This document shows positions 3,144 to 51,923 of a DNA stretch of 52,083 nt, in pieces. Numbering within the stretch: the stretch's first letter is position 1; every line of letters begins with the position of its first letter. The notes beneath the pieces were generated by a model, which saw only the letters and a list, made by a program, of their open reading frames with translations, did no database searches and was not told the DNA's origin. The stretch is from Rhizobiaceae bacterium. GTDB lineage: Bacteria > Pseudomonadota > Alphaproteobacteria > Rhizobiales > Rhizobiaceae. The position numbers were made by a program, and so were the translations under genes. The DNA is taken from the NCBI GenBank assembly GCA_016763155.1, contig JAESUH010000075.1:1-52083 (forward strand). The letters are read 5' to 3'.

Positions 3144-3349
3144 AACAACCAGTTTTAATTTTCTCGCGCAAATTGGCAAGAGAAAACAGCATATGTTTGT
3201 GCCAGTCATTCAACTCGGCGATGTGAATTAATTTGAACTACAGCGTGGGATGAGGTGACGTTCCTGAATGAAATGATTATGGATGGAAGAATGTCCTGAT
3301 CAGCTCATCTTAAATGGTCAATTTCCCTGGCAACTCGACAAGGCCAAAA

Positions 3350-6888: not shown

Positions 6889-6923
6889 CTTTTCCTCCCG
6901 GTAGGGTTTTGCGATATTTGCAA

Positions 6924-6939
6924 AATTGATATATTAATT
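6924..6939. promoter_or_regulatory. Candidate GntR operator between dctP and the lactonase gene
   Basis: A 16-bp near-palindrome, AATTGATATATTAATT, matches its own reverse complement at 14 of 16 positions. It lies 36 bases upstream of dctP and 100 bases upstream of the lactonase start. FCD-type GntR regulators of sugar-acid genes (UxuR/ExuR) use AT-rich dyads of very similar form centred on TATA. One site here could repress both arms. Assignment to the GntR protein at 3350-4093 is inference. Confidence 0.45.
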
Positions 6940-7038
6940 GCATTAGTATTCTTATTGCTCCATTGTTGATGAGTCAAATGGTTTTTGGAAACAGATAAAA
7001 ATCACCAATACCAGCGCAAAAAAGGCAGAACGATACCA

Positions 7039-7908: not shown

Positions 7909-7950
7909 AAGCCCGTGGCGCATTAGAATGCACCACACAACGGAGGAAAC

Positions 7951-9693: not shown

Positions 9694-9702
9694 GAATATT
9701 TA

Positions 9703-10428: not shown

Positions 10429-10450
10429 CGAAAGCCGTTATTGATACCTT

Positions 10451-25371: not shown

Positions 25372-26304
25372 TTAAATCGAGGGAACCGAATAGGTCGGAA
25401 CAATCCCGCTTGCTTCAATAAATGGCTCAACTTCATGGCCACGAAACAAGCCATGATCGCGCACTAATACTGTCGACCATCCCCGCGAGGCGCCGCCCAA
25501 AATATCCGTATGTAAAGTGTCGCCAATCATGGCGATGCGCTGGCGTTCCTGGTTGGGGGCGAGGCGTTGTTCTACGAGTTCGAACACCGATGGAAACGGT
25601 TTTCCGTGGAAAGCGATATCACCACCAAACCGGGCAGTTATTCGATGAGCGACAAAGCCGGGTTCAGTTGAAAAATGCTCTTCTAGGGGCGCAATAACAT
25701 CGGGATTTGCAACAACAATCGGCCGTAATTTTTCGTTTAGCGCTTCGTCCAGGAGGTGTTGCCGGGCTTCATTCCAATCCCAGGTGGACAGGAGCAAAAA
25801 TCCATCTACTTCACGATAGATCTCCAGATCGTCTCCCAGCATCACCGTGGGCGCATCAAAATCCTGGGGTGCAGAATCTTGATGTCCCATCACGCCCCAA
25901 AGTTTTACGTCTTGTTTTGCAATCCAGTTTTGCGCACCCAATCGACTTGAAATAATTTCGTCACGGCGAAAATCAAATCCCAAATTTTTAAATTTCTCCT
26001 CATTGCGTGCCGCAGGAAAAGTTGCGGAATTTGTTAAAACAAAAATTCTCTTTCCCTTGTCGCGCAATGCAGAAATACACTCAGGCGCCCCATCGATGGG
26101 AGTGCTACCTACGTTTAATACCCCGTAGGCATCAAAGACGAAAACATCCAATTCATCGGCAATCTCCAGCAGGCCAGAGACACGTTTGCTGGTCTCAGGG
26201 AATTTGGCCTCAGGTAAGTTACCACGCACGGATTCGTAGAATTCGAATGTGGATTTAGTGTCAAACCCTTCGAAATAAATCCCGTATTTACTAGATAATG
26301 GCAC
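25372..26304 (-). CDS. HAD-superfamily class IIA phosphatase (TIGR01459-like)
   Basis: A 310-residue HAD enzyme of the NagD-like IIA class. Motif I is VFVFDAYGVLNVG (Asp nucleophile; the usual second Asp is Tyr, as in this subfamily where Trp or Tyr is common). Motif II is VLTNSA, and the Lys motif is GKPFPSVFELV. Motif IV is IGDTLHTDILGG. It should cleave a small phosphate ester in the cytoplasm. It ends the phnDCEE operon and overlaps the end of the second phnE. No ATG fits; I chose the GTG at 26304 with AAAGG six bases upstream. A TTG at 26337 would add eleven residues and overlap phnE more. Its likely job is to process the imported phosphorus compound (inference). Confidence 0.83.
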   Translation of the reverse strand: MPLSSKYGIYFEGFDTKSTFEFYESVRGNLPEAKFPETSKRVSGLLEIADELDVFVFDAYGVLNVGSTPIDGAPECISALRDKGKRIFVLTNSATFPAARNEEKFKNLGFDFRRDEIISSRLGAQNWIAKQDVKLWGVMGHQDSAPQDFDAPTVMLGDDLEIYREVDGFLLLSTWDWNEARQHLLDEALNEKLRPIVVANPDVIAPLEEHFSTEPGFVAHRITARFGGDIAFHGKPFPSVFELVEQRLAPNQERQRIAMIGDTLHTDILGGASRGWSTVLVRDHGLFRGHEVEPFIEASGIVPTYSVPSI

Positions 26305-27109
26305 CGCGAACCTTTGCGGAAATCCATTCTCCTGCAATAACCGCCACGAGAATAACCAGCAAGATCAAAGTCACTTGTGGCCATGCCAGCGTATTAAGCG
26401 AAGATTGTAATTGTAATCCGATGCCACCGGCACCAACCAGACCAAGAACCGTCGATTCTCGAATATTAATATCCCAACGGAAAACTGAAATTCCCGCAAA
26501 GGCTGGCATGATTTGTGGAACTATACCATAAACCATGACCTGCCAACGGCTAGCACCGGTCGCAGTAATCGCTTCAACTTGACTGGTGTCAATTTCTTCA
26601 ATGGCCTCATAAAGTAACTTGGCGCAAAACCCAATAGAGCGAATAGAAATCGCCATCAATCCGGCAGCCACACCGGGGCCAATGATTGCCACCAGCAACA
26701 AGGCCCAGATGAGTGAGTTGATCGAGCGGGTTGAAACGATAATCAACAGGGCGATGGGGCGCACAAAAAGGGTACTTGGGGTGGTGTTTCGCGCCGCAAG
26801 AAAAGCTATAGGAACGGCCATTATCAAGGCAAAAATCGTACCAAGTGTCGCCATGTTAAAGGTGTCCCAAATCGGCTCCCACAATTCCGAAATATATGAC
26901 CAGCGTGGTGGCATTGCTCGCCCACCAATGTCGGCTGCAATGCGGGGAGCATCCCACACAAAAAACCATGTGGTGACATCTGAAATTTGCTTCCAGCACC
27001 ACATGAAAATAGAAACCGCGGCAAAGGTTGCAAACCAGCGAGTCAGTGTTTGGTTTCGACTACGCAATTGCCAGATTTTTTTACCCGAAATAGGTTCTGA
27101 TACTGGCAT
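26291..27109 (-). CDS. phnE: PhnE-type ABC transporter permease (second)
   Basis: A 272-residue permease of the phosphonate/phosphite class with about six membrane segments. The EAA-type loop is clear (TQVEAITATGASRWQVMVYGIVPQIMP), followed by [21 protein letters not shown], the usual PhnE end-motif. It begins with an ATG that shares one base with the stop of the first permease (TAATG at 27107-27111). With the first PhnE it forms the membrane channel. It has a longer N-terminal tail than its partner. Confidence 0.92.
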   Translation of the reverse strand: MPVSEPISGKKIWQLRSRNQTLTRWFATFAAVSIFMWCWKQISDVTTWFFVWDAPRIAADIGGRAMPPRWSYISELWEPIWDTFNMATLGTIFALIMAVPIAFLAARNTTPSTLFVRPIALLIIVSTRSINSLIWALLLVAIIGPGVAAGLMAISIRSIGFCAKLLYEAIEEIDTSQVEAITATGASRWQVMVYGIVPQIMPAFAGISVFRWDINIRESTVLGLVGAGGIGLQLQSSLNTLAWPQVTLILLVILVAVIAGEWISAKVRGAII

Positions 27110-27921
27110 TATTGCACCTTCGCTCTGATGATTCCTGACAGATATTCCAGCGCCATGACGACAGCGATAATAATCAAGAGGATTGCCGCAGTGGTATCAT
27201 ATTCATATCGGTCAAAGGATGTGTTGAGAGTAGCGCCAATGCCGCCCGCGCCAACCAGCCCCAGAACAGCAGACTCTCTAAAATTGATATCCAGACGATA
27301 GATCGACAAACCGATCAGCCGCGGAATAACTTGTGGTTGCACACCATAATTGACCCATTGCAGCCACGACGCACCAGTTGATTTAACGGCCTCGGCTTGA
27401 ACTTTATCCATGTCTTCAATGTTTTCTGCCAACAATTTGGCGAGAAAGCCAATCGTTGCAAAACTTAACGTAATAAAGCCTGCAAGAGGACCAAACCCAA
27501 AGATTGCCACCATCAAAATTGCCACAATAATTTCATTCAATGCCCGTGACAGCGCAATAATTCCGCGACAAATTAGGTAAACTGGCAGAGGGGCAATGTT
27601 GCGCGCAGCGCCAAGGCCAATTGGGATTGAGATTATAATGCCAACAACGGTGGAAGTGACCGCCATAATAATGCTTTCAACCATACCATCATAAATATCT
27701 GTCCCTCTGGAAACAAAATCGGGGGAGGCAAAGGCTTTGACGAATTTCCAGCCACGAACCAACCCTTCGCTCACCCGCGTCCAATTCACATCAATGGAAT
27801 TAAAGGCGAAGAACAGATAGACCAGCGTTATCGCAAGCAAGCCCCATCTCAGGACTGGGCTGTGAATAAAGTTTGGTTTCCGCCAGGGAGATCCAATCCG
27901 GCTCTCGAGTGCGCTGCTCAT
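27109..27921 (-). CDS. phnE: PhnE-type ABC transporter permease (first)
   Basis: A 270-residue permease, paralogous to the next gene. It has about six membrane helices, the EAA loop [27 protein letters not shown] and [22 protein letters not shown]. Two different PhnE proteins in one operon point to a heterodimeric channel, as in many PhnCDE-type systems. Its ATG overlaps the phnC stop (ATGA at 27918-27921). Confidence 0.92.
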
Positions 27922-28700
27922 TCAGCTTCCTCGTCGTCTACCTTGGCGATGGTCAACTTCCAGTCTTCCTCGCCATAGATCGTAGTCAGTACGTCAGCGT
28001 CCATATCCTCTGGCGCGCCATCAAATTTTATTTCGCCCTCTTTAAGCCCAACGATGCGCTGCACAAACATTTGCGCTAATGCCACATCGTGAATATTAAT
28101 GATCGCCGCCAGCCCACGTTCCTCGCATAATTCGCAAATCAATCGCATGATCTGGCGCGATGTTTTAGGGTCAAGCGAAGCTGTGGGTTCGTCAACCAAC
28201 AATAATGCGGGGTTTTGAATCAAAGCGCGGGCAATGCCCACTCGCTGTCGCTGACCACCTGAAAGTTCGTCAGCTCGCTTATCGACCATTTCCAGAAGAC
28301 CAACACGATCCAGCAAACGAAAGGCCTCATCCACATCGGATTGGGGAAATTTGCGTACCAAACTGCGCCAAAAGCCCACATACCCAAGGCGGCCGGACAA
28401 CACATTTTCCATCACGGTCAAGCGTTCTACCAGCGCATATTCCTGGAAAATCATACCCATCGTACGGCGTATTTTTCGCAACGCTGAACTGCCCAGTTTG
28501 GTAATATCCACACCATCCAAAATCGCTGCACCGGAGGTTGGCTCCACCAAACGATTTATGCATCTTATCAACGTTGATTTACCAGCACCCGAAGGGCCGA
28601 TTAGCGCCAATACCTGCCCCTTTGGCACGACCAGATCAACAGCCTTTAGAGCCTGATCACCAGTTGGATAGGTTTTTGTAAGTTTCTTGAGCTCGAGCAT
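27918..28700 (-). CDS. phnC: PhnC-type ABC transporter ATPase
   Basis: A 260-residue ATPase with Walker [11 protein letters not shown]-loop [15 protein letters not shown], signature [15 protein letters not shown], Walker [14 protein letters not shown] and switch His in INIHDVALA, all intact. The [17 protein letters not shown] stretch is typical of PhnC. It energises uptake through the two PhnE permeases. The ATG at 28700 is preferred over a TTG two codons upstream. A strong stem-loop separates it from phnD. Confidence 0.94.
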
Positions 28701-28750
28701 GGACAACCTGGAAAATAAAAAAGTAGGGCTGAAATATTAAAAATATGAGG

Positions 28751-28778
28751 GGCTGCGGGTTTATTAGAACCCGCAGCC
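28751..28778 (-). terminator. Intercistronic stem-loop between phnD and phnC
   Basis: A perfect 11-bp GC-rich hairpin (arms 28751-28761 and 28768-28778, six-base loop) lies just after the phnD stop. On the minus strand it is followed by CCTCATATTTTT, so the U-run is a few bases away. This looks like a leaky terminator or an mRNA-stabilising element that keeps binding-protein mRNA in excess of the downstream ATPase and permease genes, as known for other ABC operons. Confidence 0.65.
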
Positions 28779-28786
28779 TCCACCGA

Positions 28787-29767
28787 TTATTTGCAAGAAT
28801 AGCTTACGCCATTTGCTGTATCAATTTTCCGGATCACGTCCCAAAATTCCTTGTAAGTCATTTTTAGGAACTGACCTTCGTTGGATTTTTCAAACTCTTT
28901 TTGCAAGCTTGAGCCATCCCACTCAAAGGAGAAAAAGGCATCCATGATTTTCGCTTTAAGTTCTGGCTTCAAATTGTGTGAAACGCCAAAACCTGTGGTC
29001 GGGAAAGTCTGTGATTTATAAATAGACTTCACCTGATCTGCCTTAATAACATCACGCGAAATCATGCGTTTCATTACTGAGTTGGCAATCGAAGCGGCCA
29101 TGTAATCTTTGTTGGCAACACCCAAAATTGAATTATCGTGCTTGCCGGAATACACAGCCTCAAAGTCTTTTTTCGGAACCATATTGAAGTCTGCCTTCAA
29201 AATAGCAGACGGTGCTTTAAAGCCTGAGTTGGAAGTAGGCGAAGTGAAAGCAAGTTGCTTACCCTTAATGTCCTCAACCTTTTCAATGCCGGAACCTGGA
29301 TAGGTAATAATTTCCATTTCATATCCAAAATGTCCGTCTTTGGAAGCCATGATTGTAAACGGATTGAAACCGGCACAATTCACAGCCAATGGGTTTGAAC
29401 CCGTATTAAATCCTGCAATGTGCAAACGGCCGGAGCGCATGGCTTCAATTTGTGCCGCATTGTTTTGCACTGGGAAAAACAAGGTTTTCTTGCCTGTCAC
29501 TTTTTCCATGTGTGTCAGGAAATCGGCCCATGCTTCTTTATAAACCGCAGGATCTTCAACAGGGGTGTAAGCGAAAATAAGTGTGTCAGGATCCACTAGT
29601 TTCGAAGGGTCTGTTGGTGTATCTGCGAGCAGATCGCCATCAACATCGCAATAGCGTGTATCAAGTGTTCCGCGAGGGCATTCATCAGCCGCCGAAGCAC
29701 CAACAACAGACATTGCAGTGAACGCAAGTGCAGAGACTGCGCCCAGTAAAAAGGTTTTGATTTTCAT
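28787..29767 (-). CDS. phnD: PhnD-type phosphonate/phosphite/phosphate-binding protein
   Basis: A 326-residue periplasmic binding protein. A Sec signal peptide (about residues 1-25, ending GASA) precedes the mature protein, which begins with DECPRG. Family landmarks are YTPVEDPAVYKEAWADF, the ligand loop FTSPTSNSGFKAPS, VYSGKHDNSILGV and FPTTGFGVSHNL. Three Cys residues (two near the start and one at the very end, SYSCK) could form a disulfide. The start at 29767 has GGGAGAATCC at ribosome-binding distance; an upstream in-frame ATG at 29839 is not supported. The ligand (phosphonate, phosphite or another phosphorus oxyanion) cannot be fixed from sequence. No C-P lyase or phosphonatase gene is in the window. 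Confidence 0.9.
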   Translation of the reverse strand: MKIKTFLLGAVSALAFTAMSVVGASAADECPRGTLDTRYCDVDGDLLADTPTDPSKLVDPDTLIFAYTPVEDPAVYKEAWADFLTHMEKVTGKKTLFFPVQNNAAQIEAMRSGRLHIAGFNTGSNPLAVNCAGFNPFTIMASKDGHFGYEMEIITYPGSGIEKVEDIKGKQLAFTSPTSNSGFKAPSAILKADFNMVPKKDFEAVYSGKHDNSILGVANKDYMAASIANSVMKRMISRDVIKADQVKSIYKSQTFPTTGFGVSHNLKPELKAKIMDAFFSFEWDGSSLQKEFEKSNEGQFLKMTYKEFWDVIRKIDTANGVSYSCK

Positions 29768-30006
29768 AGTGGATTCTCCCAAATATTTCATTCCTTTAGA
29801 TAAGAAGCTGAAGTGTAGCGATGGAAAAATAGGAGTCAATCAAGTTGTCAGATGAAATCAATACAAAGGCAATTTAAGCAATGAACACATGCGATATTGG
29901 GAAACAAGTGCTGAATTTCCCTCGCATGCCTTCATCACAGTTCACGCCAAAAATGGAGCAAACTTGTGGTGAATAGCACGTCTAGCATGGCTGCTCAGTT
30001 AGCATA

Positions 30007-31407
30007 TCAAGCCTGCAGATACCGTTTCTGTTGGAAAGTACAGTTTCTAGCCAGATCATCAACGCTTTCAATAATGAAATCAACAGTTGCATCATCCATT
30101 AAATAACCAAAATTCAAACGTGTCCAACCCGGTTTGTTGCCATTACTTCCAGCCGCAATTGAACGCCTGATCTGCTCGGACATCTCCCTCTCAACCCCTA
30201 ACAACCGATGCCCATAGGGGCCGGCACAGGCGCAACCGCCCCGCGCCTGAATGCCGTAAATATCACTTAGCATCCTTGTTACCTGTCCATGATCAATCAT
30301 CTCCCCGCCATCATCGCGAATGATAAACGAGAATATAGGCAATCGACGATTGGCGGAAGGTGCAAGAATTTCGATATTGGGGTTTTTCTGCCAAACAGCA
30401 AAGGCCCTTGAAACCAGCTCCTCATCACGCTGCCGTATGAATTCTGTGCCAATCGCTGCTTTGATGATAAACACCAGCGCTGCTCTGATATCACCTAAAA
30501 CATTGGGCGTACCTGCCTCTTCGCGCTCAGTGAGACTATCCAGATAATCATGCGCCCATGGCGACACATAGGAAACCGAGCCACCTCCCGGCCATGTAGG
30601 TCGGGTTGCGCGAACCATATTATTACGAATGATCAACAGACCAGACGCGCCCGGCCCGCCGAGAAATTTATGCGGTGATAAGAATACCGCGTCCTTCTCC
30701 AACCCCGCAGCCGGGTTCATATCAATGGGCAAATAGGGAGCGCCGCCTGCATAGTCCCAGCAGGCCAATGCTCCATAGCGCCGCAACAATCTTGTCACCG
30801 CATCCACGTCGCTCACGATACCGGTCACATTGGATGCCGCAGAAAACGCACCTATAACAAGGGGCCGGTCGCGAAAACGTTTCAACTCGTTTTCCAAAAC
30901 TTCCAAATCAGGGCCACCGCCCTCACCTTCAGGAATTTCCACGACCACGCCACCGCTTTCACGCCAAGGCAGTATGTTGGAATGATGCTCGTAAGGCCCA
31001 ACTAAAATCACAGGTGGTGAATCAGCAGCAATATCGGCAACCCCACTTAGTGCTACCAGCCTGTTGATTGCCGATGTGGCTCCGGAACCTGTAAATATCA
31101 CGCTGCAATCATCGCCAGCATTAACGTGATCCCCGATGAGTGTGCGGGCCTCTTCGCGCAATCCGGTTATGAATGCCCCGCAATAGGAAGATTCTGTGTG
31201 GCTGTTTGCGTAATAGGGCAACACCTTGTTGAGGATGAAATCTTCAACCTGACGTAACGCCCGACCAGACGCCGTATAGTCAGCATATATCAGTTCTTTT
31301 TCCCCGAATGGCCCCATTATTGGCACTCGCTCACCAATTAACCCGGCACGCAACTGCGCCACCACATCGTCGGATTTAATTTCAGTCGCAAAGCGTTCAA
31401 GTATCAT
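30007..31407 (-). CDS. Class V aminotransferase-fold PLP enzyme (cysteine-desulfurase-like)
   Basis: A 466-residue fold-type I PLP enzyme. Lys247 in LSPHKFLGGPG should hold the cofactor, with Asp218 (CWDYAGG) against the pyridine nitrogen. EHHSNILPW (about 140-148) is typical of the SufS/NifS group. Near residue 390 the motif ARGGCACAGPYGH has two Cys residues (392, 394) where desulfurases carry their loop, so cysteine-desulfurase or selenocysteine-lyase-like chemistry is possible but unproven. It is divergent from an Lrp/AsnC regulator, the usual arrangement for an amino-acid enzyme with its own sensor. GAGAGG precedes the ATG. Confidence 0.84.
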   Translation of the reverse strand: MILERFATEIKSDDVVAQLRAGLIGERVPIMGPFGEKELIYADYTASGRALRQVEDFILNKVLPYYANSHTESSYCGAFITGLREEARTLIGDHVNAGDDCSVIFTGSGATSAINRLVALSGVADIAADSPPVILVGPYEHHSNILPWRESGGVVVEIPEGEGGGPDLEVLENELKRFRDRPLVIGAFSAASNVTGIVSDVDAVTRLLRRYGALACWDYAGGAPYLPIDMNPAAGLEKDAVFLSPHKFLGGPGASGLLIIRNNMVRATRPTWPGGGSVSYVSPWAHDYLDSLTEREEAGTPNVLGDIRAALVFIIKAAIGTEFIRQRDEELVSRAFAVWQKNPNIEILAPSANRRLPIFSFIIRDDGGEMIDHGQVTRMLSDIYGIQARGGCACAGPYGHRLLGVEREMSEQIRRSIAAGSNGNKPGWTRLNFGYLMDDATVDFIIESVDDLARNCTFQQKRYLQA

Positions 31408-38999: not shown

Positions 39000-40022
39000 T
39001 CAAATAATGAAGTTGTAAGTGCGTTCAAATACCCAGAACATGGCTATGGAACCAATGAGATATGCGGCAGGAAATGCTGCAATAGATATTAATTCCCAGA
39101 GGGCAAATTTTCGTTCTCTCCGTGCAAGCAAATAATTGGCAATGAAAAACAGCCCAATCACGCAAGCAACAAATGTCAGCTGACCAAGCTCCACCCCGAC
39201 ATTGAAAAACAGAAGCGCCAGTGGAATTGCATGTTGGGGTAATCCAATCTCACTCAAGGCACCGGCAAATCCGAACCCATGAAGAAGGCCAAACAGAAAA
39301 GCTATCACCCATGGCATTCGGGTAGCGATACTTGGTTTTCCCTGATGCATTTGCAAAATCTCGACGGCCACAAACACAATGCTCAGGACAATCAGCACCT
39401 CAATCAGCGACGGGGGCATGTTTACCCAGCCAAATGAAGCCGCCACGAGCGTAACACTGTGAGCGAGTGTGAAAGTCGTAATGGCTGCCACAAGTCGGCG
39501 CCAACTGCCAACAAGAAAGAGCAGAGCCAGAACAAACAATAAATGATCATAGCCCGAAAGAATGTGCTCAAAACCGAGAACAAGATAGGTCGTAGAAACT
39601 TCGACCCAACTTGATTTAGATTTTATCACAAAAGTCGAATCTGAAGGCGTGAGGCGTTGGGTTTGTCCTGTACCGTCAGCGCGTATTACCCGGACAATTG
39701 CCTCGCTTCTCGTTTTCTCAAGCCCAGTAACGAGAATTTTTCTGTTCACCAGATCACTGCCGCATTTGAGGTGCCAGCGCTCCAGGAAAGCACCGTTTAC
39801 CAGACGGGATCCGCGATTGCTTTCCACGCATATTTTTGGAAATTCAACATGAACCGCAAGCCTCTGTGTCCCTTTTGCTGGAACTTTTAGCAATATGGCC
39901 CAGATATTTTGGGATAACTCGGAAATTTCAAGATAGTTGGGGCGTATCCCATCTGCCTGTGCCACAGGGGGGGAGAATTGTAGCCAGATGACGGCCAGGA
40001 TGAGGATGCGCAATATTTTCAT
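39000..40022 (-). CDS. HupE/UreJ-family membrane protein with periplasmic N-domain
   Basis: A 340-residue protein. A Sec signal (to VAQA, residue 23) is followed by a periplasmic beta domain of about 130 residues (VHVEFPKICVESNRG, KILVTGLEKTRSEAIVRV). Six or so membrane helices follow with the HupE/UreJ_2 motifs EHILSGYDHLLFVLAL, FTLAHSVTL and LFGLLHGFGFAGAL. The conserved His/Asp residues suggest a metal-transport role; nickel or cobalt transport is known for some HupE/UreJ proteins, but not for this long subfamily. It ends the DUF3604/PpiC gene block and lies 16 bases after the isomerase gene. Confidence 0.88.
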   Translation of the reverse strand: MKILRILILAVIWLQFSPPVAQADGIRPNYLEISELSQNIWAILLKVPAKGTQRLAVHVEFPKICVESNRGSRLVNGAFLERWHLKCGSDLVNRKILVTGLEKTRSEAIVRVIRADGTGQTQRLTPSDSTFVIKSKSSWVEVSTTYLVLGFEHILSGYDHLLFVLALLFLVGSWRRLVAAITTFTLAHSVTLVAASFGWVNMPPSLIEVLIVLSIVFVAVEILQMHQGKPSIATRMPWVIAFLFGLLHGFGFAGALSEIGLPQHAIPLALLFFNVGVELGQLTFVACVIGLFFIANYLLARRERKFALWELISIAAFPAAYLIGSIAMFWVFERTYNFII

Positions 40023-40038
40023 AATTCGGCGATTACCT

Positions 40039-40935
40039 TCAAGGACTGTCCTGATTGGTGGTCATGATCTCCACATCGTATTGATCTCTGAACGCTTGAA
40101 AAACCAGTTTATTGTTTTCTTTTCGTTGCTTATCGCGCCACTCTCTTTCCACCGTTTTACGAACTATCGCCAATGTGGGTGGTGCGGAGGGAACAAGTTC
40201 ATCGATATAAATGAGGTGCAATCCAAATCCTGATTTCGTCGGCCCGGCCCATTGCTTTACCGGTAGAGAAAACAGGCTATTGGCAAATTCCTGCCCAAAC
40301 AGTTTGGCAATATCAAAAGGCGTCACATTATTCATTGCGCCTGGCAGCATCGTTGCATCCCCAAACGACTCCAAAGAAGTTTCTCCAGGCACGAGTCCTT
40401 TCAGGTTTTCTAGAGCGGATTTAGTGCGATCTTCGGCGCTATCTGATTTGTTGAACTTGAAATATACCTGAGTGAATGTAGCCCTTGGCGGGGTCAGGAA
40501 TTTCTCTTTGTTGGCTTCCAGATATTCTTGCAACATATCGTTTGATGGTGCAGGTGGCTCCATCAAATCACGGCTCAGAAAATCCATTTTCTGACGCAGA
40601 CGCCGCCTGATGACGGTGTCATTTTTGTCCAAACCAAGTTTCAACGCCTCGCGATACAGAATTTCCTCCTTCAGGTAATCCTGTATCATCCCATCCATCT
40701 CAATTTTTGTGGGTTTACGCATCCAGCTTCGTTCGTATGAAGCTGCAATGGTATTGATTATCCGGTTATCAATGACAATTCGGTTAGCATTTTCTTCCAC
40801 CGCAGGCTCACTGAAGAACTGAAAAGTAGAAAACAAAACAGCACCAATAACGACAAATTGAAACAATGGATCTTTAAAGACCCGTTCAAAGAACCCCCTA
40901 TTGTCGGTTTCCGTTGAAGGATCATGTTTAGCCAT
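40039..40935 (-). CDS. Membrane-anchored PpiC-type peptidyl-prolyl isomerase
   Basis: A 298-residue protein. One membrane helix near residues 27-45 (LFQFVVIGAVLFSTFQFF) is followed by a SurA-like helical chaperone part (KLGLDKNDTVIRRRLRQKMDFL). The parvulin domain comes next (PRATFTQVYFKFNK, FANSLFSLPVKQWAGPTKSGFGLHLIYIDEL in two parts). It probably helps fold envelope proteins such as the neighbouring beta-barrels. The start at 40935 (MAKHDPS) is preferred; an upstream in-frame start at 41004 would run through a 136-base gap that contains a hairpin. It lies 16 bases upstream of the HupE-like gene. Confidence 0.85.
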   Translation of the reverse strand: MAKHDPSTETDNRGFFERVFKDPLFQFVVIGAVLFSTFQFFSEPAVEENANRIVIDNRIINTIAASYERSWMRKPTKIEMDGMIQDYLKEEILYREALKLGLDKNDTVIRRRLRQKMDFLSRDLMEPPAPSNDMLQEYLEANKEKFLTPPRATFTQVYFKFNKSDSAEDRTKSALENLKGLVPGETSLESFGDATMLPGAMNNVTPFDIAKLFGQEFANSLFSLPVKQWAGPTKSGFGLHLIYIDELVPSAPPTLAIVRKTVEREWRDKQRKENNKLVFQAFRDQYDVEIMTTNQDSP

Positions 40936-40954
40936 ACTATTCGTTCCATAAATC

Positions 40955-40990
40955 AAACGGCCTTCAAATAAATATAGTAGAAGGCCGTTT
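40955..40990 (-). terminator. Intercistronic hairpin between DUF3604 gene and isomerase gene
   Basis: A perfect 11-bp inverted repeat (40955-40965 and 40980-40990) with a 14-base AT-rich loop. On the minus strand it is followed by GATTTAT, a weak U-tract; on the plus strand by TTAATTG. It may attenuate transcription between the DUF3604 gene and the isomerase/HupE pair. Confidence 0.5.
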
Positions 40991-41071
40991 TTAATTGTTA
41001 TCAAAGTGTTGGGATAACCTCAATACAGATATGCACTCAGGTTAAATAAACATCAAAACTGCTGACTGCGT

Positions 41072-42874
41072 TTAACCCTTTGGTTCATACCAAATTGGCG
41101 AACCCCAGGCGCGTTCCTGAATGGTTGCAGCAACGTCTTCCAGCAATGGAAGGTTGTTGCGTACAGCCTCATAGGTTGACCAGCGCGGGGTTGGAATTTC
41201 CAATACTCGCGCATAGTAGAATGCACCATCGGCAGGATTGAAATCCTTGTCTGTCCAGCTCCCCATGAGCACAGGCGTGCCAATATCATTGGTGTATAGC
41301 GCGGTTTTCAAATCAACGGTGTTTCCAACCGCTGGCAACTTTCCAGCTTGTGTCGCAACCCGCTCACCGGACCAGACAACGTCGATGATTATTTCATTCA
41401 GATCACCAAATTTATCCACCCAGCCTTTGATAATCTGGATACGATCCAGATTTGCACCATCAGGATCTTTTTCAGCGTAAACCGTGAAAGTTGGCGCAAC
41501 GCTCGACTGCACCAAATTTCCACCCATGGGAACACCATGCTGATAGCCCTGCGTAACCAATTGAGTGGCGTCCTTTGGAACAGCATTGAGACCAACGCCG
41601 CCAAACATCCGAACTTTAATACGCGGACCAGAGGTAACGAAGGTTTCCTTGCGTCTCATTGCATCCCAAATCCCAGCGCGGGTGTTTTCTGTTGCCCAAA
41701 CTCCGGTGATCGAACCGATGGATAGGTCTTTGCCATCGACCCAGCCGCCGACACCTTCGGTGCGGCGGCGTTCAACAGTGCCATCTTCTGGTCCGTGACC
41801 ACCAATGAAGGTGTCTTCAGCCACATCAGATGGCAAACCGTTGTGGCTATCCGTGCCGCCAACGAAACCATATTTGAACGGGTTAATACCCAGAGACTGT
41901 TCTTTCTGCAGGCCGACTTTCAAACCGCCCCGGACGAAATCTCGCGCAGAGAAGATGCGGCCAGAATTTTTCTGGATTGAATCTGCGTTTTCAAAATCGG
42001 CAAATTCATCCGCAGCCCAGAATTTTCTATGGACTTCTGAATTGCCCTTGATCTGCATCATTTCAATGAGCGGTTCAAAGTGTGCTCTTGTGCGGGCATA
42101 TTCAAGCGATAGCGGTTTACCGGTAGAATCCGTGTTTGGAAACATCCTGCCTTTGGATGCATTTGAATTATGCGAAATAGCTAATAGGTGACGGCCAGCA
42201 GCCTCTTGCGTGCGCATCCATTCCCATAGCTCTTCTTCCGTATTCACATCAAGATAGCTAATCGGTGATGCCGGTACATTGTCATCGCGAAACAGCACAT
42301 TTCTGTGCAGATTTGCGCCACCTGGGGCGCCAGACCACTCAAAGCCAATCATTGCGGTAAAAACATCAGGATCATTATGTTTTTCTGCTGCTTCAATCAT
42401 AATCTGCCAGGCACTTTTCACCGTGCTTGGCCCGGCGAAGAAGCTTGGGTGTTCAGGTTTGGCCGCGCCCCGGTTCACGGATAGAACATATTTGAAAAAC
42501 CACTGCTGTTTTTCTTTAAGCGTTTTGAGATTGCGCAAAGCTTTCAAATCTTCGTTGTCATAGCCTGGTGCGCCTTTAACAATCGTCGAATACATCTCGC
42601 CAATATATTCGGAATGATCCGTTACAGCTGCAAAATCCAGTGGACGTTTAAGCTGTTTTTTGACACCGTGAATTTCAAACGCTTCACCCTTGGCAAACCG
42701 ATAGGCCATGGATGGCGACATTCGATTATCGCCGATATAGGCATCAAGAGAATACATGGTGTGCACATGGGTTTCACCAAAATAGGCATTACGAAGAGGA
42801 TTCTCGTCCGCGTGACCCACCGAAACCATCATGGCCATAACGGCGATGGATGTGGATGAAAGTAGATTTTTCAT
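41072..42874 (-). CDS. DUF3604 protein, putative exported PHP-like metallo-hydrolase (paralogue 1)
   Basis: A 600-residue exported protein (signal peptide to about residue 22, GHA/DEN). It matches the DUF3604 family in length and motifs. Candidate metal ligands fall in the order seen in PHP phosphoesterases: His36-x-His38 (GETHVHT), Asp86-His87 (VTDHSEY), Glu179 (MIGFEW), His235-Asn236 (ISHNSN), Asp342-x-His344 (GGTDSHNG). The C-terminal part is beta-rich and ends AWGSPIWYEP. The PHP reading is inference from motifs; no activity is known for the family. A strong AAGGAAGAG precedes the ATG. The gene begins nine bases after the beta-barrel gene, so the two are co-transcribed. Confidence 0.9.
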   Translation of the reverse strand: MKNLLSSTSIAVMAMMVSVGHADENPLRNAYFGETHVHTMYSLDAYIGDNRMSPSMAYRFAKGEAFEIHGVKKQLKRPLDFAAVTDHSEYIGEMYSTIVKGAPGYDNEDLKALRNLKTLKEKQQWFFKYVLSVNRGAAKPEHPSFFAGPSTVKSAWQIMIEAAEKHNDPDVFTAMIGFEWSGAPGGANLHRNVLFRDDNVPASPISYLDVNTEEELWEWMRTQEAAGRHLLAISHNSNASKGRMFPNTDSTGKPLSLEYARTRAHFEPLIEMMQIKGNSEVHRKFWAADEFADFENADSIQKNSGRIFSARDFVRGGLKVGLQKEQSLGINPFKYGFVGGTDSHNGLPSDVAEDTFIGGHGPEDGTVERRRTEGVGGWVDGKDLSIGSITGVWATENTRAGIWDAMRRKETFVTSGPRIKVRMFGGVGLNAVPKDATQLVTQGYQHGVPMGGNLVQSSVAPTFTVYAEKDPDGANLDRIQIIKGWVDKFGDLNEIIIDVVWSGERVATQAGKLPAVGNTVDLKTALYTNDIGTPVLMGSWTDKDFNPADGAFYYARVLEIPTPRWSTYEAVRNNLPLLEDVAATIQERAWGSPIWYEPKG

Positions 42875-42883
42875 TTCTCTTCC

Positions 42884-43672
42884 TTACTTGCTTGGTACCA
42901 ATAATTTCATTGTGAATTGAATTTTATCGCTAGGAGCGACGCCTGTATCATAAAAATTTCGCTCATAAGAACCGATGAACTGAACTCTGTGTTTGCCGAT
43001 CTTGACCAATTTTGCCAATTTGACGCCCAAGGGCAGACTGGTGAATTTGTTTTGTTCCCAGTCGTAATTGAAGGTCATTTCCGAGTTTCCAATACTCCAA
43101 CCATCTGGCAACGAATAATTGAAGATGGGCTGGATAATTGAAACATTCACATCAGGTCTGGAACTATCGCCAGCAACTGTAAAAATGTTCTGATTGAACA
43201 GGCCCCAAAGAATTTTATCGTGATGAGCTGTGAAACCAAATGCAGGACCAAGCCCCCATTTTTCAGTACTTATACCGCTTTCCCCGGTCGGCAATAATGC
43301 AACTGCCCCAACACCCCAACGTCCCCATGATTCATCAAACGTTGTCAGATTGAACAATGTGGCATCGTTAAAACCGGAAAGGCCACTGGGGCTTTTGGTG
43401 ACATAGGGAACCGTAAGCCGCGCGATATTATTATGACCAAGGACAGTGAAAGGAATCGCTGCGCGAAACTGCAAGGTATTACCTTTTGCAGAAGGCGCAT
43501 TGTAATAGTTTGGCGTGTAGAATTCTTGAAACTGAAAACTCATTATTGAAGCAGTCGGGTCGCTTGCTGCCTGGCTTAAAGACTGTTTTCCATCAGCAGT
43601 TTCCTGCGCTGAAGCAATGCTGGCAATTGCACAATAAATTACCAGCCCGCCCAAATATCTGAAAATTCCCAT
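42884..43672 (-). CDS. Putative outer-membrane beta-barrel (PF13557/MetA-type transporter)
   Basis: A 262-residue exported protein. The signal peptide ends near ASAQE (about residue 22). The rest shows alternating hydrophobic strands typical of a small beta-barrel of the 'phenol degradation MetA' group (FTVLGHNNIARLTVPYVTK, GVGAVALLPTGESGISTEKWGLGPAFGF in parts, VNVSIIQPIFNYSLPDG). It ends with a C-terminal strand IQFTMKLLVPSK rather than a clear aromatic residue. It is translated just before DUF3604 paralogue 1. The start at 43672 has GGAGGATAAGG upstream; a TTG at 43711 is not needed. Its solute is unknown. Confidence 0.72.
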   Translation of the reverse strand: MGIFRYLGGLVIYCAIASIASAQETADGKQSLSQAASDPTASIMSFQFQEFYTPNYYNAPSAKGNTLQFRAAIPFTVLGHNNIARLTVPYVTKSPSGLSGFNDATLFNLTTFDESWGRWGVGAVALLPTGESGISTEKWGLGPAFGFTAHHDKILWGLFNQNIFTVAGDSSRPDVNVSIIQPIFNYSLPDGWSIGNSEMTFNYDWEQNKFTSLPLGVKLAKLVKIGKHRVQFIGSYERNFYDTGVAPSDKIQFTMKLLVPSK

Positions 43673-43866
43673 TGCCTTATCCTCCCTTCCAACCACGTAA
43701 TTTATGTTCAAAAAGAGCCGTCATCCTCCCGAATTGGACAGCTAGTTAAAGGCGGTATCAGCGCCTGTATGGGTAAGAGTGTCTCTGGCAATATCTGCGA
43801 AAATGGCATTCATTGGCTGGATTTGCATTGTTGCTCAGATACACTTTCGCTACCCAGTCTAGCCGC

Positions 43867-45801
43867 CTAACCGCCGCTTTTCGGCGTGTACCAGATTGGT
43901 GATGACCAAGCGCGTTCTTGGTGTTTCATTGGCACATCGTCTGTCATTTTAATGCCAAACCGCAATTGGTCATAGGCTGTCCAGCGCGGTGTTGGAATTT
44001 CAATGACGCGAGCGTAATAAAACGCCTTTTGCTCGGGATTGAAATCAGGATCGCTCCAAACTCCAGACAATTCAGGATCACCGATCGTGTCCGTCCAACT
44101 GGCGTTAGCGATATTAACGGTATCACCGACTTTTGGCAGTTTTCCGTCTGCGTTTAGCTCACGCTTATCCGCATCTCCCCAAGCAATATTGTAGATTTTT
44201 TCGTGGGTTTTACCATCAGCATCCAACCAGCCCTTGATGATCTGGATACGATCCAGATTGCCGCTCAGCGGATCTTTCATTGCAGCGACCAGGAATGTTG
44301 GTGCTTTGCTGGCATCCTCTTGCGCAGTCAGATCACCGCCCATGGGAACACCTTTGGTGTAGCCAGCATCTGCCAGATAGCGACTTTTGGCATCTTCTGC
44401 CTGATAATCCCATCCGCCAAAGAAGCGAACGGTCATGCGTGAACCGGACGTTGCATATGTTTCTTTACGAAACATTGCATCCCAAAGGGCTTCACGGGTA
44501 TTGTCGGTTGCCCAAACAGCGGCATAGCCTGCACCTGTATAAATCCATGTATACCGGGTTTTACCAAAACCCTTTTTGGCAACATGTTTCCAACGTTTGG
44601 GTCTTGGCTCCTGAGAAACGTGTTTGCCGAAGAAATTATCTTCCTCAATTGAAGTCAGTGAGTTATGCACATCCGTTCCGCCGATATGGCCAAATTTAAA
44701 CGGGTTGGTTCCGAGTTTCTTTTCCCATGAAAGGCCCTGCATCAGGCCGCCACGCAAATACATATAGGGGCGCATTTCTGGTGATTCCGGCTCTCCCTGC
44801 ATCGTCAGATTACCATATTCCCAGCCTGCAATACCAAAATTGGCAAACTCATCATTGGGAGATAATGTAGGGTGCGTTTCACTGCTGCCCTTGGTTTGCA
44901 TAACCTCCTGCAATCTCTCCCAGCGCTGACGGCGTTTTACATATTCTGCATCCATCGGAGAACCATCAAACTTATGAGGTTCAAACATCCGGCCATTGGA
45001 TAGATTACCGTTATGGGGAATGGCCAGCACTTTGCCGCCGACATTCTTTTCGTAATTTTCCATCCATTCCCAAAGTTTTTCCGGGTCTTCGCTTATCCAG
45101 GAATTAAAGGGCATCATCTTATCGGCATTGCTTTTGCCACCGCGATACAAGACATTACGATGCAAATTGTTGCCACCGGGAACAGACGTCCATTCATAGC
45201 CAATCATCGCTGTGAATTTTCCGGGGTTGTTAAAATCTTCAGCCGTTTGTGTATAGGCCTCCCAGACTGATTTCATTACCGGGCCAGCAATTTTTGGGTC
45301 AGTAAGAGGTTTGGGCAAAGTGCCTGACGTCTGAGCAACGATAACTTCATTGACCGCATCAGTGGCTGCTTTGCCACCAGCTTTCATCGCTTCGCCCCAG
45401 CGTACCAGGGTTTCATCTGTCAAGAAAGAGGGGTTGCCATTATAGACTTCATTCATAACCCCCAGACCTTCGACGTGATCAGAGATAACGAGAAAATCCA
45501 TTGGCCGGGAGAGTTTGACCGGCACACCGGATGATGAGATCACTTCTTCGCCACGCGCCAAACGATAGGCTTGCTCGGGAACCAGGCGGTTGCCACCCAT
45601 AAATGCATCGCCAGAATTGGCGGTATGGTGGTGTGTGTCACCGAAATATACCCTTTGCGGATACTTCTTCTCGGCATAAGGGGAATATCTGATATCGCCC
45701 TTCTTCACCTGTGTTTCAGCAGCATTCATCATTGCCGTTGAAAAACCAATCATAAGCAGGCTTGTAGTTGCCAATATAGTGAGATTTTTCCCAAAATTCA
45801 T
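43867..45801 (-). CDS. DUF3604 protein, putative exported PHP-like metallo-hydrolase (paralogue 2)
   Basis: A 644-residue exported paralogue of the protein at 41072-42874. The signal peptide ends near NAAET (about residue 29). The same ligands recur: His57-x-His59 (GDTHHHT), Asp108-His109 (ISDHVEG), Glu203 (MIGYEW), His263-Asn264 (IPHNGN), Asp377-x-His379 (GGTDVHNS). It is about 45 residues longer, with an extra segment before Glu203 and another before the last motif, so the two likely differ in substrate. It is transcribed away from the Crp-type regulator (174-base divergent region). GGGAGAAAAAT precedes the ATG at 45801. Confidence 0.9.
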   Translation of the reverse strand: MNFGKNLTILATTSLLMIGFSTAMMNAAETQVKKGDIRYSPYAEKKYPQRVYFGDTHHHTANSGDAFMGGNRLVPEQAYRLARGEEVISSSGVPVKLSRPMDFLVISDHVEGLGVMNEVYNGNPSFLTDETLVRWGEAMKAGGKAATDAVNEVIVAQTSGTLPKPLTDPKIAGPVMKSVWEAYTQTAEDFNNPGKFTAMIGYEWTSVPGGNNLHRNVLYRGGKSNADKMMPFNSWISEDPEKLWEWMENYEKNVGGKVLAIPHNGNLSNGRMFEPHKFDGSPMDAEYVKRRQRWERLQEVMQTKGSSETHPTLSPNDEFANFGIAGWEYGNLTMQGEPESPEMRPYMYLRGGLMQGLSWEKKLGTNPFKFGHIGGTDVHNSLTSIEEDNFFGKHVSQEPRPKRWKHVAKKGFGKTRYTWIYTGAGYAAVWATDNTREALWDAMFRKETYATSGSRMTVRFFGGWDYQAEDAKSRYLADAGYTKGVPMGGDLTAQEDASKAPTFLVAAMKDPLSGNLDRIQIIKGWLDADGKTHEKIYNIAWGDADKRELNADGKLPKVGDTVNIANASWTDTIGDPELSGVWSDPDFNPEQKAFYYARVIEIPTPRWTAYDQLRFGIKMTDDVPMKHQERAWSSPIWYTPKSGG

Positions 45802-45975: not shown

Positions 45976-46665
45976 ATGCAAAATATCAATGAAAAACAGG
46001 CAGTTGTTCAGGGGTGGCTGGGGCATACACCCGAAATATTTTCCAACAAGCTACTTGCACAAAGCACCCGCGTAGAAGCTGAAAAGGGACGGGTTATTTT
46101 TTCGGTTGGTGAAGAGGCCAACGGGCTATGGGGTATTGCCAAAGGCCAAGCACATTTCAACATCGCAACTCATGAAAGCGGGCCACGATTTGCTCATATC
46201 ATCGGCCCCGGCTCATGGTTTGGCGACCATGAATTGCTGACAGGGTCCACGCGCATTCTCGAAGTTAAGACCAGCAGCGATTGTGTTCTGTTTCATGTCC
46301 CTGAGCGAAAATTTCTCTCATTAGCCGCAGAATACCAACTAACCTGGCGCTGGCTTGGATTGCTGGCAACACAACACACATTTCTTGCATTGGGTTCAGC
46401 CGATGATTTGATGATTGGGAATTCAGAGGTGCGTCTAGCCGCATTGTTGCTGCGACTTTCCGGCCGACGCGGTGCTCCCGAAAAAACCATTCCACTTGAT
46501 GAACTTGAAGTTACGCAGCAAAACATCAGTGAAGCTCTTAACCTTTCGCGCACGGCAACCGGTCAAAAATTACGACGTTTCAGGGAAGATAATATTATCG
46601 GGTTTTCCTACAACAAACTCCAAATACTAGATCCGCAAGCACTCGAAGCGCGCCTCGCCGAATAG
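45976..46665 (+). CDS. Crp/Fnr-family transcriptional regulator
   Basis: A 229-residue regulator. A cyclic-nucleotide-binding-like beta roll (about residues 25-130; KGRVIFSVGEEANGLWGI, GPGSWFGDHELLTGSTR) is followed by a Crp-type winged helix (LDELEVTQQNISEALNLSRTATGQKLRRF in parts). It has no N-terminal Cys cluster, so an Fnr-like Fe-S sensor is unlikely. The phosphate-binding cassette is divergent from cAMP-binding Crp. It is divergent from DUF3604 paralogue 2 and convergent with a second beta-barrel gene, so it is the best candidate regulator of this block. Confidence 0.9.
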   Translation: MQNINEKQAVVQGWLGHTPEIFSNKLLAQSTRVEAEKGRVIFSVGEEANGLWGIAKGQAHFNIATHESGPRFAHIIGPGSWFGDHELLTGSTRILEVKTSSDCVLFHVPERKFLSLAAEYQLTWRWLGLLATQHTFLALGSADDLMIGNSEVRLAALLLRLSGRRGAPEKTIPLDELEVTQQNISEALNLSRTATGQKLRRFREDNIIGFSYNKLQILDPQALEARLAE

Positions 46666-46811: not shown

Positions 46812-47777
46812 TCAGAACTTCACCACGCCCTTGAAGAAAACCGTATCGCCCTGGAGGCGATTCTGTGTGCTGGTTTCGTGCAACCATTTAAGTTCGGCAA
46901 GAGCGTCCAATCCGCCGATTTTTGAAACATACGAGAGCACAGGCCCAAATCCAACAGTATTTGCCCTAAATCCTCCGAAAGTGGCACCAGTGCCGCTGTC
47001 ATCCGTGATTTGCTGGTAATAATATCCACTGACACCAATTCCGGCCAATCCACCCATTAATGGAAAATGTTGAGCGAGCGTTCCATCCAGGTGAAACTGT
47101 GTTCCGGATCTGTAATTGGTCGCAGGGTTTTCAAAATTGAAATCAATGCCTGCGAAAAGAGACGCTTCAAACCCGTTTTTTCCTAAATACATGACCGCAG
47201 CTGTCGGCTCGATGGTCCAGAAATTTTTGCCGGTATTGGCCAGACGACCAAGTTCGTAACTACCAGTTGGAGCATAGGCAGCAACCCGGAAATTAAAGTT
47301 CAATTCTTGGTTCACATTGTAGTTTAGCATTAGCGGCATCAATACAATATCGCCGAGCCCTTTGGTGGTATCTGACACCGCAACTAACCTTCCTCCGCGA
47401 GTAACTGCGTCAGCAGACACTGTCGTATCAACGAAGGGGATGGTTGCACTCATTGCGTAGCTCCACCTCTCTCCAAAGTCGACTGGAGGCCGCCACAACA
47501 TTGTCAAACCCAGTGCTGTTGAATTCGCCTTAACGCCTGCAGCAGTTATTCCAGCAATTGGTAGCGGTTTTCCACGCTCAAAAGACCCTTGGTAATTAAT
47601 GACATTGAGCCGAACAATGAATGTTTCATCCGTGGGAACACCATCTATAAAAGAAGACATTGCACCCGGCAAATAGTGCCCAGACCCGCCCTCTTCGGCC
47701 ACACCTTCAAAGACCAACGTACTGAATATCGAAGCACTAGCAATGACAGCCAAAGTCAATTTTTTGCAAAAACTCAT
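46812..47777 (-). CDS. Putative outer-membrane beta-barrel, SphA/MetA-type (PF13557)
   Basis: A 321-residue exported protein. The signal peptide ends near EGVAEE (about residue 25). A GGSGHYLPGAMSSFIDGVP segment directly follows, which is typical of 'phenol degradation MetA/SphA' barrels. Later strands include LGDIVLMPLMLNYNV, APTGSYELGRLANTGKNFW and a C-terminal strand ending VVKF, with the terminal Phe of outer-membrane barrels. The start at 47777 has a perfect AGGAGG upstream; an earlier in-frame start at 47810 is not needed. Likely role: uptake of a hydrophobic solute across the outer membrane. Confidence 0.85.
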   Translation of the reverse strand: MSFCKKLTLAVIASASIFSTLVFEGVAEEGGSGHYLPGAMSSFIDGVPTDETFIVRLNVINYQGSFERGKPLPIAGITAAGVKANSTALGLTMLWRPPVDFGERWSYAMSATIPFVDTTVSADAVTRGGRLVAVSDTTKGLGDIVLMPLMLNYNVNQELNFNFRVAAYAPTGSYELGRLANTGKNFWTIEPTAAVMYLGKNGFEASLFAGIDFNFENPATNYRSGTQFHLDGTLAQHFPLMGGLAGIGVSGYYYQQITDDSGTGATFGGFRANTVGFGPVLSYVSKIGGLDALAELKWLHETSTQNRLQGDTVFFKGVVKF

Positions 47778-48110
47778 CTCATCCTCCTGATCCAGGCAAC
47801 AATAATTCAATGGGACGAAAAGCCTGATCGTTGGTCGGCATTTTAAATTTACTCTTTAATTAGTTGTACTTATACATCTGCAAGCAAGTCAAATCAGAAA
47901 TATTGCGATGCAGTCAAACCAAAAACCCAAGAATAGTTTGCCTAGCAAAATTCCTAATCGCAGAATGGTAAATATTGAACATTTTACAAAAAAAAGCAGT
48001 CGAAATGGTGCCAGTATCAAAACCTTCGCTAAACCTTGGGCAGCTTGTAGCAATCTCCCTGCCTCGTTTTTGGGCAGCCGATGTTATATGTTTTGGCAAT
48101 TATTAAGCGT
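47778..48110. other. Intergenic region between beta-barrel and hydrolase genes
   Basis: 333 bases without a supported gene. It should hold the promoter of the beta-barrel gene at 46812-47777. A plus-strand frame at 47908-48243 runs antisense into the hydrolase gene and has no coding features. Confidence 0.5.
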
Positions 48111-50315: not shown

Positions 50316-51923
50316 TTGTCAAAACCTTCGAGCACTAAAAATACAGAATTATCAAAGGTATACCTGGTCGGTGGTGGCATTTCTTCCCTGGCTAGCGCCA
50401 AATTTCTAATCGATGATACGGGCGTGAGCGGCGACAACATTCACATATTGGAACAAGACGATATTCTCGGCGGAGCCATGGATGGATCAGGCGAACCAGA
50501 TGATGGGTTTGTTGTGCGCGGTGGCAGAATGCATGAAGCGCACTACACCTGTTATTGGGATTTGCTCTCTGATATCCCATCCTATGATGACCCAAATATT
50601 TCGGTGCGTGACGAGTCTTTCGAATTCAATTCAAGGTTTGTTTCCAATGCTCAGGCAAGATTGCTGCGCGATGGAAAAAAGCTGGACGTCTCGTCCTTCG
50701 GACTGTCGCTGGGGGATCAGGCAAACCTGTTGAAACTGACATTTGTCTCTGAACATTCCCTCGGCAATAAACGGATTGAAGACTGGTTCAATCAATCGTT
50801 TTTTGAGACAAATTTTTGGTACATCTGGACCTCTATGTTTGCGTTCCAAAAATGGAGCAGCGTTGCAGAAATGCGGCGTTATATGAAACGCTTTATCCAC
50901 CTTGTTGAAGGGCTGCCAAGGTTGGGTGGTGTCATGCGTACCAAATATAATCAGTATCATTCGGTTATCCTGCCGCTCAAAAACTACCTGAAAGAACGCG
51001 GCGTAAATTTCGACATGAATACGCAAGTTGTTGATATCGATTTCAATCTATCCGCAAACAAGAAAACGGCTACCGTTCTCCACATCATCGACAAGTCAGG
51101 CAGCGGAAATGAAATAGCGATTGGCACAGATGACTATGTATTTATGACCAATGGTTCCATCACCGAAAGCACCGATAATGGCGCGTGGGACAGGCCAGCA
51201 ATATTGAAGGATAAATCATCCTCGGGCGCTTGGAAACTCTGGGAAAAGATCGCGAAGAAGGATAATGCCTTTGGCAATCCGGGCGTATTTTGCGACGCGA
51301 TCGAATTGCAGGAATGGTATTCTTTCACCGGAACCTTCAAGGACACCACCTTCCATGACTACATGGAAAATTTCTCAGGCAATGTAGACGGCACGGGCGG
51401 GCTTGTAACTCTAACGGATTCCAACTGGCTAATGTCGATGGTGATTGCTCGACAACCGCATTTTCCCAATCAACCAGATGACGTAAAAATCATGTGGGGT
51501 TACGGTTTATATCCGAACCGGAAGGGCAATTTTATTGACAAGAAAATGGCTGATTGCACAGGCGAGGAAATGCTTCAGGAACTCTGGTATCACCTAAAAA
51601 TTCAGGACCTGATGCAACCGGTGATGGATGCGGGCAAGATCAATTGTATTCCCGTTGCAATGCCGTTTATTGATAGTCTGTTCATGCCACGCTCCTTGGG
51701 AGATCGGCCAAATGTTATTCCAGACGGCTCAACCAATTTTGCCTTTCTGGGGCAATTTGCAGAAGTGCCGACGGATTGCGTGTTCACGGTTGAATACTCT
51801 GTGCGCACTGCGCAAACGGCGGTCTATGGCCTGTTCGACACGAGCAAAGAAGTGATGCCGGTATATGATTCAATTCACATGCCGGAAGTCCTCATTAAAG
51901 CGGTGCGTGCCATTAGCAGCTAG
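50316..51923 (+). CDS. ohyA: Oleate hydratase (FAD-dependent fatty-acid double-bond hydratase)
   Basis: A 535-residue oleate hydratase (myosin-cross-reactive antigen family) of normal length. The FAD-binding motif is VYLVGGGISSLASAKFL with EQDDILGGAMDGSG. Glu74 in GGRMHEAHYTCYW and a Tyr in TKYNQYHSV (about 209-217) fit the known catalytic Glu and Tyr. It adds water to the cis-9 double bond of oleic and related acids in the cytoplasm, giving 10-hydroxy fatty acids. No in-frame ATG is near; the start is TTG at 50316, with TAGGAG eight bases upstream. It is transcribed alone, divergent from the acyltransferase/hydrolase pair. Confidence 0.93.
   Translation: MSKPSSTKNTELSKVYLVGGGISSLASAKFLIDDTGVSGDNIHILEQDDILGGAMDGSGEPDDGFVVRGGRMHEAHYTCYWDLLSDIPSYDDPNISVRDESFEFNSRFVSNAQARLLRDGKKLDVSSFGLSLGDQANLLKLTFVSEHSLGNKRIEDWFNQSFFETNFWYIWTSMFAFQKWSSVAEMRRYMKRFIHLVEGLPRLGGVMRTKYNQYHSVILPLKNYLKERGVNFDMNTQVVDIDFNLSANKKTATVLHIIDKSGSGNEIAIGTDDYVFMTNGSITESTDNGAWDRPAILKDKSSSGAWKLWEKIAKKDNAFGNPGVFCDAIELQEWYSFTGTFKDTTFHDYMENFSGNVDGTGGLVTLTDSNWLMSMVIARQPHFPNQPDDVKIMWGYGLYPNRKGNFIDKKMADCTGEEMLQELWYHLKIQDLMQPVMDAGKINCIPVAMPFIDSLFMPRSLGDRPNVIPDGSTNFAFLGQFAEVPTDCVFTVEYSVRTAQTAVYGLFDTSKEVMPVYDSIHMPEVLIKAVRAISS

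Follow-up and report, generated by a model that had tools for sequence, protein, structure and literature searches.

Paired DUF3604 proteins of a Rhizobiaceae bacterium, predicted to be exported trinuclear PHP-type hydrolases and co-inherited with a PpiC-type isomerase and a HupE/UreJ-type permease

The phosphodiesterases Sb-PDE and No-PDE of Sphingobium and Novosphingobium are PHP enzymes with a trinuclear zinc site, whose sole structurally known homologue is 3E38, the protein BVU_3505 (PMC11656708). In Sb-PDE, the alpha metal is held by H61, H63 and D260, the beta metal by H203 and H142, and the gamma metal by D68, H93 and H262, with E135 as the bridge; the alpha and beta metals activate a water molecule, and the gamma metal acts as a Lewis acid (PMC11656708). 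Sb-PDE is an exported protein with a signal peptide (PMC5460133). The present analysis concerns two paralogous genes of the family DUF3604 (PF12228) in a stretch of 52,083 nucleotides, hereafter the window, that spans positions 1 to 52,083 of contig JAESUH010000075.1 (assembly GCA_016763155.1) of a Rhizobiaceae bacterium (Table 1). Their products, of 600 and 644 residues, are 43% identical and cover PF12228 nearly end to end (profile positions 2-591 and 3-591 of 591), with scores of 688.5 and 789.5 bits, respectively, against the curated cut-off of 20.4 bits. The pair are probably exported trinuclear PHP hydrolases, most likely of phosphodiesters or phosphate esters in the periplasm, with a foldase and a metal permease of their own.

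The original prediction had read from the letters of both genes, in the same order, the motifs HxH, DH, GxE, HN and TDxH as a PHP-type ligand set, and the residues are found where it placed them, namely H36/H38, D86-H87, E179, H235-N236 and D342/H344 in the 600-residue protein and H57/H59, D108-H109, E203, H263-N264 and D377/H379 in the 644-residue one. All these positions are invariant in an alignment of 90 DUF3604 sequences from many phyla, where the chance for seven random His, Asp or Glu positions of the 600-residue protein to be all invariant is about 4e-6, and where only six His residues are invariant, precisely the six predicted His ligands. Its rows had been retrieved by means of a peptide pattern containing DH and then filtered for HxH, which makes this alignment partly biased; therefore, the conservation was recounted on 123 DUF3604 open reading frames (ORFs) gathered by similarity alone, with no motif filter. 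In the numbering of the 600-residue protein, H87, E179, H190, H235, N236, D342 and H344 were present in 123/123, and H36, H38 and D44 in all 122 rows covering them (one row is truncated), while D86, with Glu in a single exception (122/123), was the sole named position seen to vary. Thus, the named residues are essentially invariant in unfiltered relatives, and the lack of conservation on which the prediction could have failed was not observed. R191, N236 and K276 are invariant as well, and all nine predicted ligand positions are also kept in an alignment with three DUF3604-like proteins of 752-774 residues that are about 25% identical.

The mapping of the Sb-PDE ligands onto DUF3604, made one-to-one by order and spacing and not by superposed coordinates, recovers the four PHP motifs and all nine trinuclear-site ligands: in the 600-residue protein, alpha H36, H38 and D342, beta H235 and H190, bridge E179, and gamma D44, H87 and H344; in the 644-residue protein, H57, H59, D65, H109, E203, H214, H263, D377 and H379. 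The set called complete in the original prediction holds for the residues that it named, but the gamma Asp D44 and the beta His H190 had been missed, and of the supposed DH pair only H87 belongs to the published Sb-PDE-type set, D86 being outside it. Since D44 and H190 are invariant, the DUF3604 proteins are predicted to carry a complete trinuclear rather than a dinuclear PHP-type site, so that the proposed periplasmic tri- or dinuclear metal hydrolase is supported as an interpretation, without its dinuclear option. The lengths given for the two proteins were confirmed, and signal peptides are predicted in both. As the N-termini of both are hydrophobic and signal-like, and a lipobox seems to be present in several relatives, the reaction is placed in the periplasm, and DUF3604 would be exported, as Sb-PDE is.

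The AlphaFold2 model of the 600-residue protein has a mean predicted local distance difference test score (pLDDT) of 91.4 and a predicted template modelling score (pTM) of 0.92, with the disorder confined to the putative signal peptide (residues 1-22). Its seven barrel strands (30-37, 81-84, 172-182, 230-235, 269-274, 336-339 and 389-393) alternate with helices, and the named residues are located at or just past their C-terminal ends: H36/H38 end strand 30-37, D86/H87 follow 81-84, E179 lies within 172-182, H235 ends 230-235, and D342/H344 follow 336-339. Together with the structural ranking, the model shows the distorted (beta/alpha)7 barrel of the PHP superfamily, and the nearest solved relatives are PHP enzymes, as the prediction had anticipated. 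Thus, ranks 1-10 of VIA-align are all PHP, with Z from 15.8 to 8.0, the first unrelated row having Z 7.6: 3E38 (Z 15.8 over 235 residues, 3.5 A), TM0559 (2anu, 15.5), PsfC (7rty, 12.9), 3e0f and 3o0f (11.0), RNase AM (7ug9 and 9etk, 9.4 and 9.2), the Chromobacterium violaceum amidohydrolase 2yb1 (9.2), and DNA polymerase III (8.1 and 8.0). Residues from about 418 to 600 fold into a beta-sandwich of their own, of a widespread type, and the block of immunoglobulin-like matches to them at Z 6-7 says no more than that. DUF3604 shares with Sb-PDE, No-PDE and 3E38 the PHP fold plus a further C-terminal part; however, Sb-PDE has 441 residues and matches PF02811, the Pfam PHP model, whereas the DUF3604 proteins do not match it, and have a bigger C-terminal sandwich, along with a long insertion that separates motif II from motif III. 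TM0559, PsfC, RNase AM and 2yb1 have the PHP barrel in common with DUF3604, and TM0559 shows HxH, DH, GxE...H and HP motifs that align with it by eye, but all four are smaller and lack the large C-terminal sandwich, and the substrate of RNase AM is RNA.

Unlike Sb-PDE, the DUF3604 proteins share an operon with PpiC and HupE, and this association extends far beyond the window. Among 80 DUF3604 loci of other genomes, assigned by record name to Gamma- and Alphaproteobacteria, Desulfobacterota, Verrucomicrobia, Acidobacteria, Cyanobacteria, Nitrospirales and others (the assignment may be imperfect, as many of the records are metagenome bins), a PpiC homologue is found nearby in 45 and a HupE homologue in 43, mostly with gaps of 3-130 base pairs (bp) to DUF3604. 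In a Desulfobacterales bin (L042), PpiC and HupE come after orthologues of the two paralogues (60% and 69% identical), and at three divergent loci (L206, L207, L208) a DUF3604-like protein forms a trio with a SurA/PpiC-type isomerase and HupE_UreJ_2. No further neighbour comparable to PpiC/HupE was conserved in the 80 loci, with AraC-type regulators present in 7 and the other recurring groups looking mostly like antisense reading frames. Full-length DUF3604 was found in 18 of 190 genomes of the window's class, leaving out one (G124) with only a contig-end fragment. HupE_UreJ_2 occurs in 17 of these 18 (p 3.6e-11 versus the rest), and the PpiC subfamily, with membership set at E <= 1e-10, in 17/18 versus 1/172 of the others (p 4e-22), both p-values being optimistic because genomes were treated as independent despite their relatedness; 19 of the 22 PpiC-subfamily copies adjoin DUF3604. 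A PpiC-type isomerase dedicated to DUF3604 and a HupE/UreJ-type permease are, therefore, co-inherited with it, a partnership not found in the literature searched.

Several observations weigh against a phosphoester-cleaving PHP enzyme. Neither protein matches PF02811 at E <= 1, although this model is a means of detection and not a defining trait, the PHP-type proteins L155 and L160 scoring below its cut-off too; the best Foldseek match in PDB, the PHP protein 2anu, has a probability of 0.97 but an E of only 4.6e-3; a profile comparison with an alignment of eight short PHP proteins aligned motifs I and II alone; and neither protein reaches the cut-off of the CehA/McbA family (NF038032). HupE-type permeases are known for nickel and cobalt uptake, whereas Sb-PDE uses zinc. 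The substrate-pocket residues differ even between Sb-PDE and 3E38 (PMC11656708), and the diester specificity is therefore not transferable to DUF3604. Since there are intermediate proteins that match DUF3604 and CehA/McbA alike, the chief alternative is a PHP-fold metallohydrolase acting on carbamates, carboxylic esters or lactones, not on phosphate esters, in the manner of CehA. CehA is a carbaryl hydrolase, and the CehA/McbA metallohydrolases have the PHP-type metal-site motifs and the large size in common with DUF3604, to which they are linked by several DUF3604-like proteins of about 700-900 residues that match DUF3604 and, below the cut-off, the CehA/McbA model; the 600-residue protein itself gives a trace match (E 0.0017), and the accessory C-terminal domain and a putative outer-membrane channel encoded next to one paralogue pair would fit the uptake of an organic substrate. 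However, DUF3604 remains far under the cut-off of 80 bits (17.9 for the 600-residue protein, no match for the 644-residue one), and the nearest solved fold, 3E38, belongs to the Sb-PDE group, so that a CehA-like substrate appears rather unlikely.

The genomic context itself admits of two other explanations. That PpiC and HupE are mere neighbours of a DUF3604 protein acting alone agrees with the multi-copy genomes, where most DUF3604 copies are not beside HupE, and with one genome (G052) that has DUF3604 with neither HupE nor the PpiC subfamily, but it is improbable in view of the near-exclusive co-occurrence of the PpiC subfamily with DUF3604 genomes, the short gaps, and the presence of the module across many phyla and also beside divergent homologues. 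The conserved vicinity of a putative metal permease could also suit a non-catalytic PHP-fold protein, an exported metal- or substrate-binding partner of that permease; the full catalytic ligand set, gamma ligands included, invariant in 123 proteins would be unexpected for a metal store, and many DUF3604 copies of multi-copy genomes lie away from HupE, which makes such a binder very improbable. When PDB was searched by sequence, with the 600-residue protein and also with the 90-row profile, no genuine relative emerged, the matches to 60S ribosomal protein L8 and LSD1 being due to chance.

For the exported trinuclear PHP hydrolase, metal binding and phosphoester chemistry would follow by analogy with Sb-PDE, phosphodiesters or phosphate esters being the favoured substrates. 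By homology, the alpha and beta metals (H36, H38, D342; H190, H235; bridge E179) would activate a bridging water, and the gamma metal (D44, H87, H344) would, as a Lewis acid, stabilise the leaving group, in a pocket that may be shaped by the C-terminal beta-sandwich plus the invariant R191, N236 and K276. Judging by family and context, the PpiC-type isomerase may fold the exported enzyme and the HupE/UreJ-type permease may handle its metal. More broadly, and only tentatively, an ancient, widespread periplasmic system can be envisaged, in which a private PpiC foldase and a private HupE permease delivering metals make up a dedicated maturation pathway of the trinuclear PHP hydrolase; such a pathway, if true, would serve an exported PHP metalloenzyme, and no earlier description of it was found in the literature searched.

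The fold and the metal site are of a known kind, to which DUF3604 is an added member, and domain databases may already put DUF3604 near metal-dependent hydrolases. DUF3604 is widespread over phyla, with several copies per genome, yet is almost absent from the literature searched: PF12228 was not found mentioned there, and DUF3604 only in a single paper, within a list of transposon insertions, among them one in a 622-residue DUF3604 domain-containing protein of Chlamydia trachomatis (PMC11925237). The family would add a large group to the few known exported PHP enzymes, including the flame-retardant diesterases, and the named ligands make its function directly testable, while the co-inherited PpiC and HupE genes offer a rare handle on the folding and metallation of a periplasmic multi-metal enzyme.

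In the window, the operon runs on the minus strand in the order 644-residue DUF3604, 275-residue protein, 600-residue DUF3604, PpiC-type isomerase and HupE/UreJ-type permease, with gaps of about 155, 9, 67 and 16 bp. The ORF of the 644-residue protein, counted from ATG, has an alternative TTG start open 8 codons upstream; the PpiC-type ORF opens at TTG, with the first ATG 23 codons in, and its product has an N-terminal hydrophobic segment resembling a membrane anchor. The permease conserves, in a 33-row alignment, an HxxxGxDH-like segment (H153, D159, H160), H188, H248, N274 and E278, sharing such membrane-part His, Asp, Glu and Asn residues with the HupE/UreJ nickel-cobalt permeases (PF13795, PF04955), but its gene accompanies those of an exported hydrolase and an isomerase instead of hydrogenase or urease genes. 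The 275-residue protein gave no Pfam match above the cut-off and no NCBIfam match, a weak picornavirus capsid match below the cut-off being disregarded; homologues occur in 4 of the 80 DUF3604 loci, one of them (L087) 60% identical. Its single-sequence model, with pLDDT 34, is unusable, and no claim is therefore made about its fold; it is perhaps an outer-membrane protein.

Table 1. Features of the DUF3604 operon and of other regions of the window
Feature	Position	Strand	Family match	Protein layout
HupE/UreJ-type permease	39000-40022	minus	PF13795, E 1.3e-48	
PpiC-type peptidyl-prolyl isomerase	40039-41004	minus	PF13145 Rotamase_2, E 4.5e-15	
DUF3604 protein, 600 residues	41072-42874	minus	PF12228, E 9.8e-207	predicted signal peptide ~1-22; PHP barrel ~28-417; C-terminal beta-sandwich ~418-600
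275-residue exported protein without family, between the DUF3604 genes	42884-43711	minus		
DUF3604 paralogue, 644 residues from ATG	43867-45801	minus	PF12228, E 2.5e-237	signal peptide predicted
Divergent Crp/Fnr-type regulator, upstream of the operon	45976-46665	plus	cNMP_binding, HTH_Crp_2	
Phenol_MetA_deg-type protein, putative outer-membrane channel, upstream of the operon	46812-47810	minus	PF13557, E 2.9e-50	
Type I phosphodiesterase/nucleotide pyrophosphatase family protein	1746-3209	minus		
Organophosphonate-type uptake cluster	25372-31407	minus		
Oleate hydratase, full-length	50316-51923	plus	MCRA family	

The genome of the window (G000) has at least seven full-length DUF3604 copies and three partial matches (contigs C6, C138, C153, C212 and C242), and this number of copies suggests functional diversification. 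At one of these loci (L170, G000:C242:18000-32502), positions 6242-12062 carry a Crp-type regulator, a PF13557 protein and then two tandem DUF3604 genes; the PF13557 protein, directly upstream of the pair, is 74% identical to the putative outer-membrane channel of the window, and the Crp homologue is 30% identical to its Crp/Fnr-type regulator. Among the divergent relatives, a DUF3604-like family of about 770 residues above the Pfam cut-off (L030, L031, L032, L033, L034, L036, L037, L038, L039) replaces HxH by HGQ and DH by SH, and has R near the H190 position; its site may be a variant that holds fewer metals. Another protein, of 862-890 residues (L163/L209, G137:C31), matches both DUF3604 and CehA_McbA and is, by these matches, an intermediate between the two families; a HupE_UreJ_2 gene is present on its contig. 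About 8 kilobases from the DUF3604 operon and not adjacent to it, the organophosphonate-type uptake cluster encodes an HAD-IIA phosphatase, PhnE-type permeases, a PhnC-type ATPase, a PhnD-like binding protein and a SufS-like class-V aminotransferase, and may hint at the use of organophosphorus compounds. The Type I phosphodiesterase/nucleotide pyrophosphatase family protein has a distant match to phosphonoacetate hydrolase, and the window also includes a gene for an oleate hydratase.

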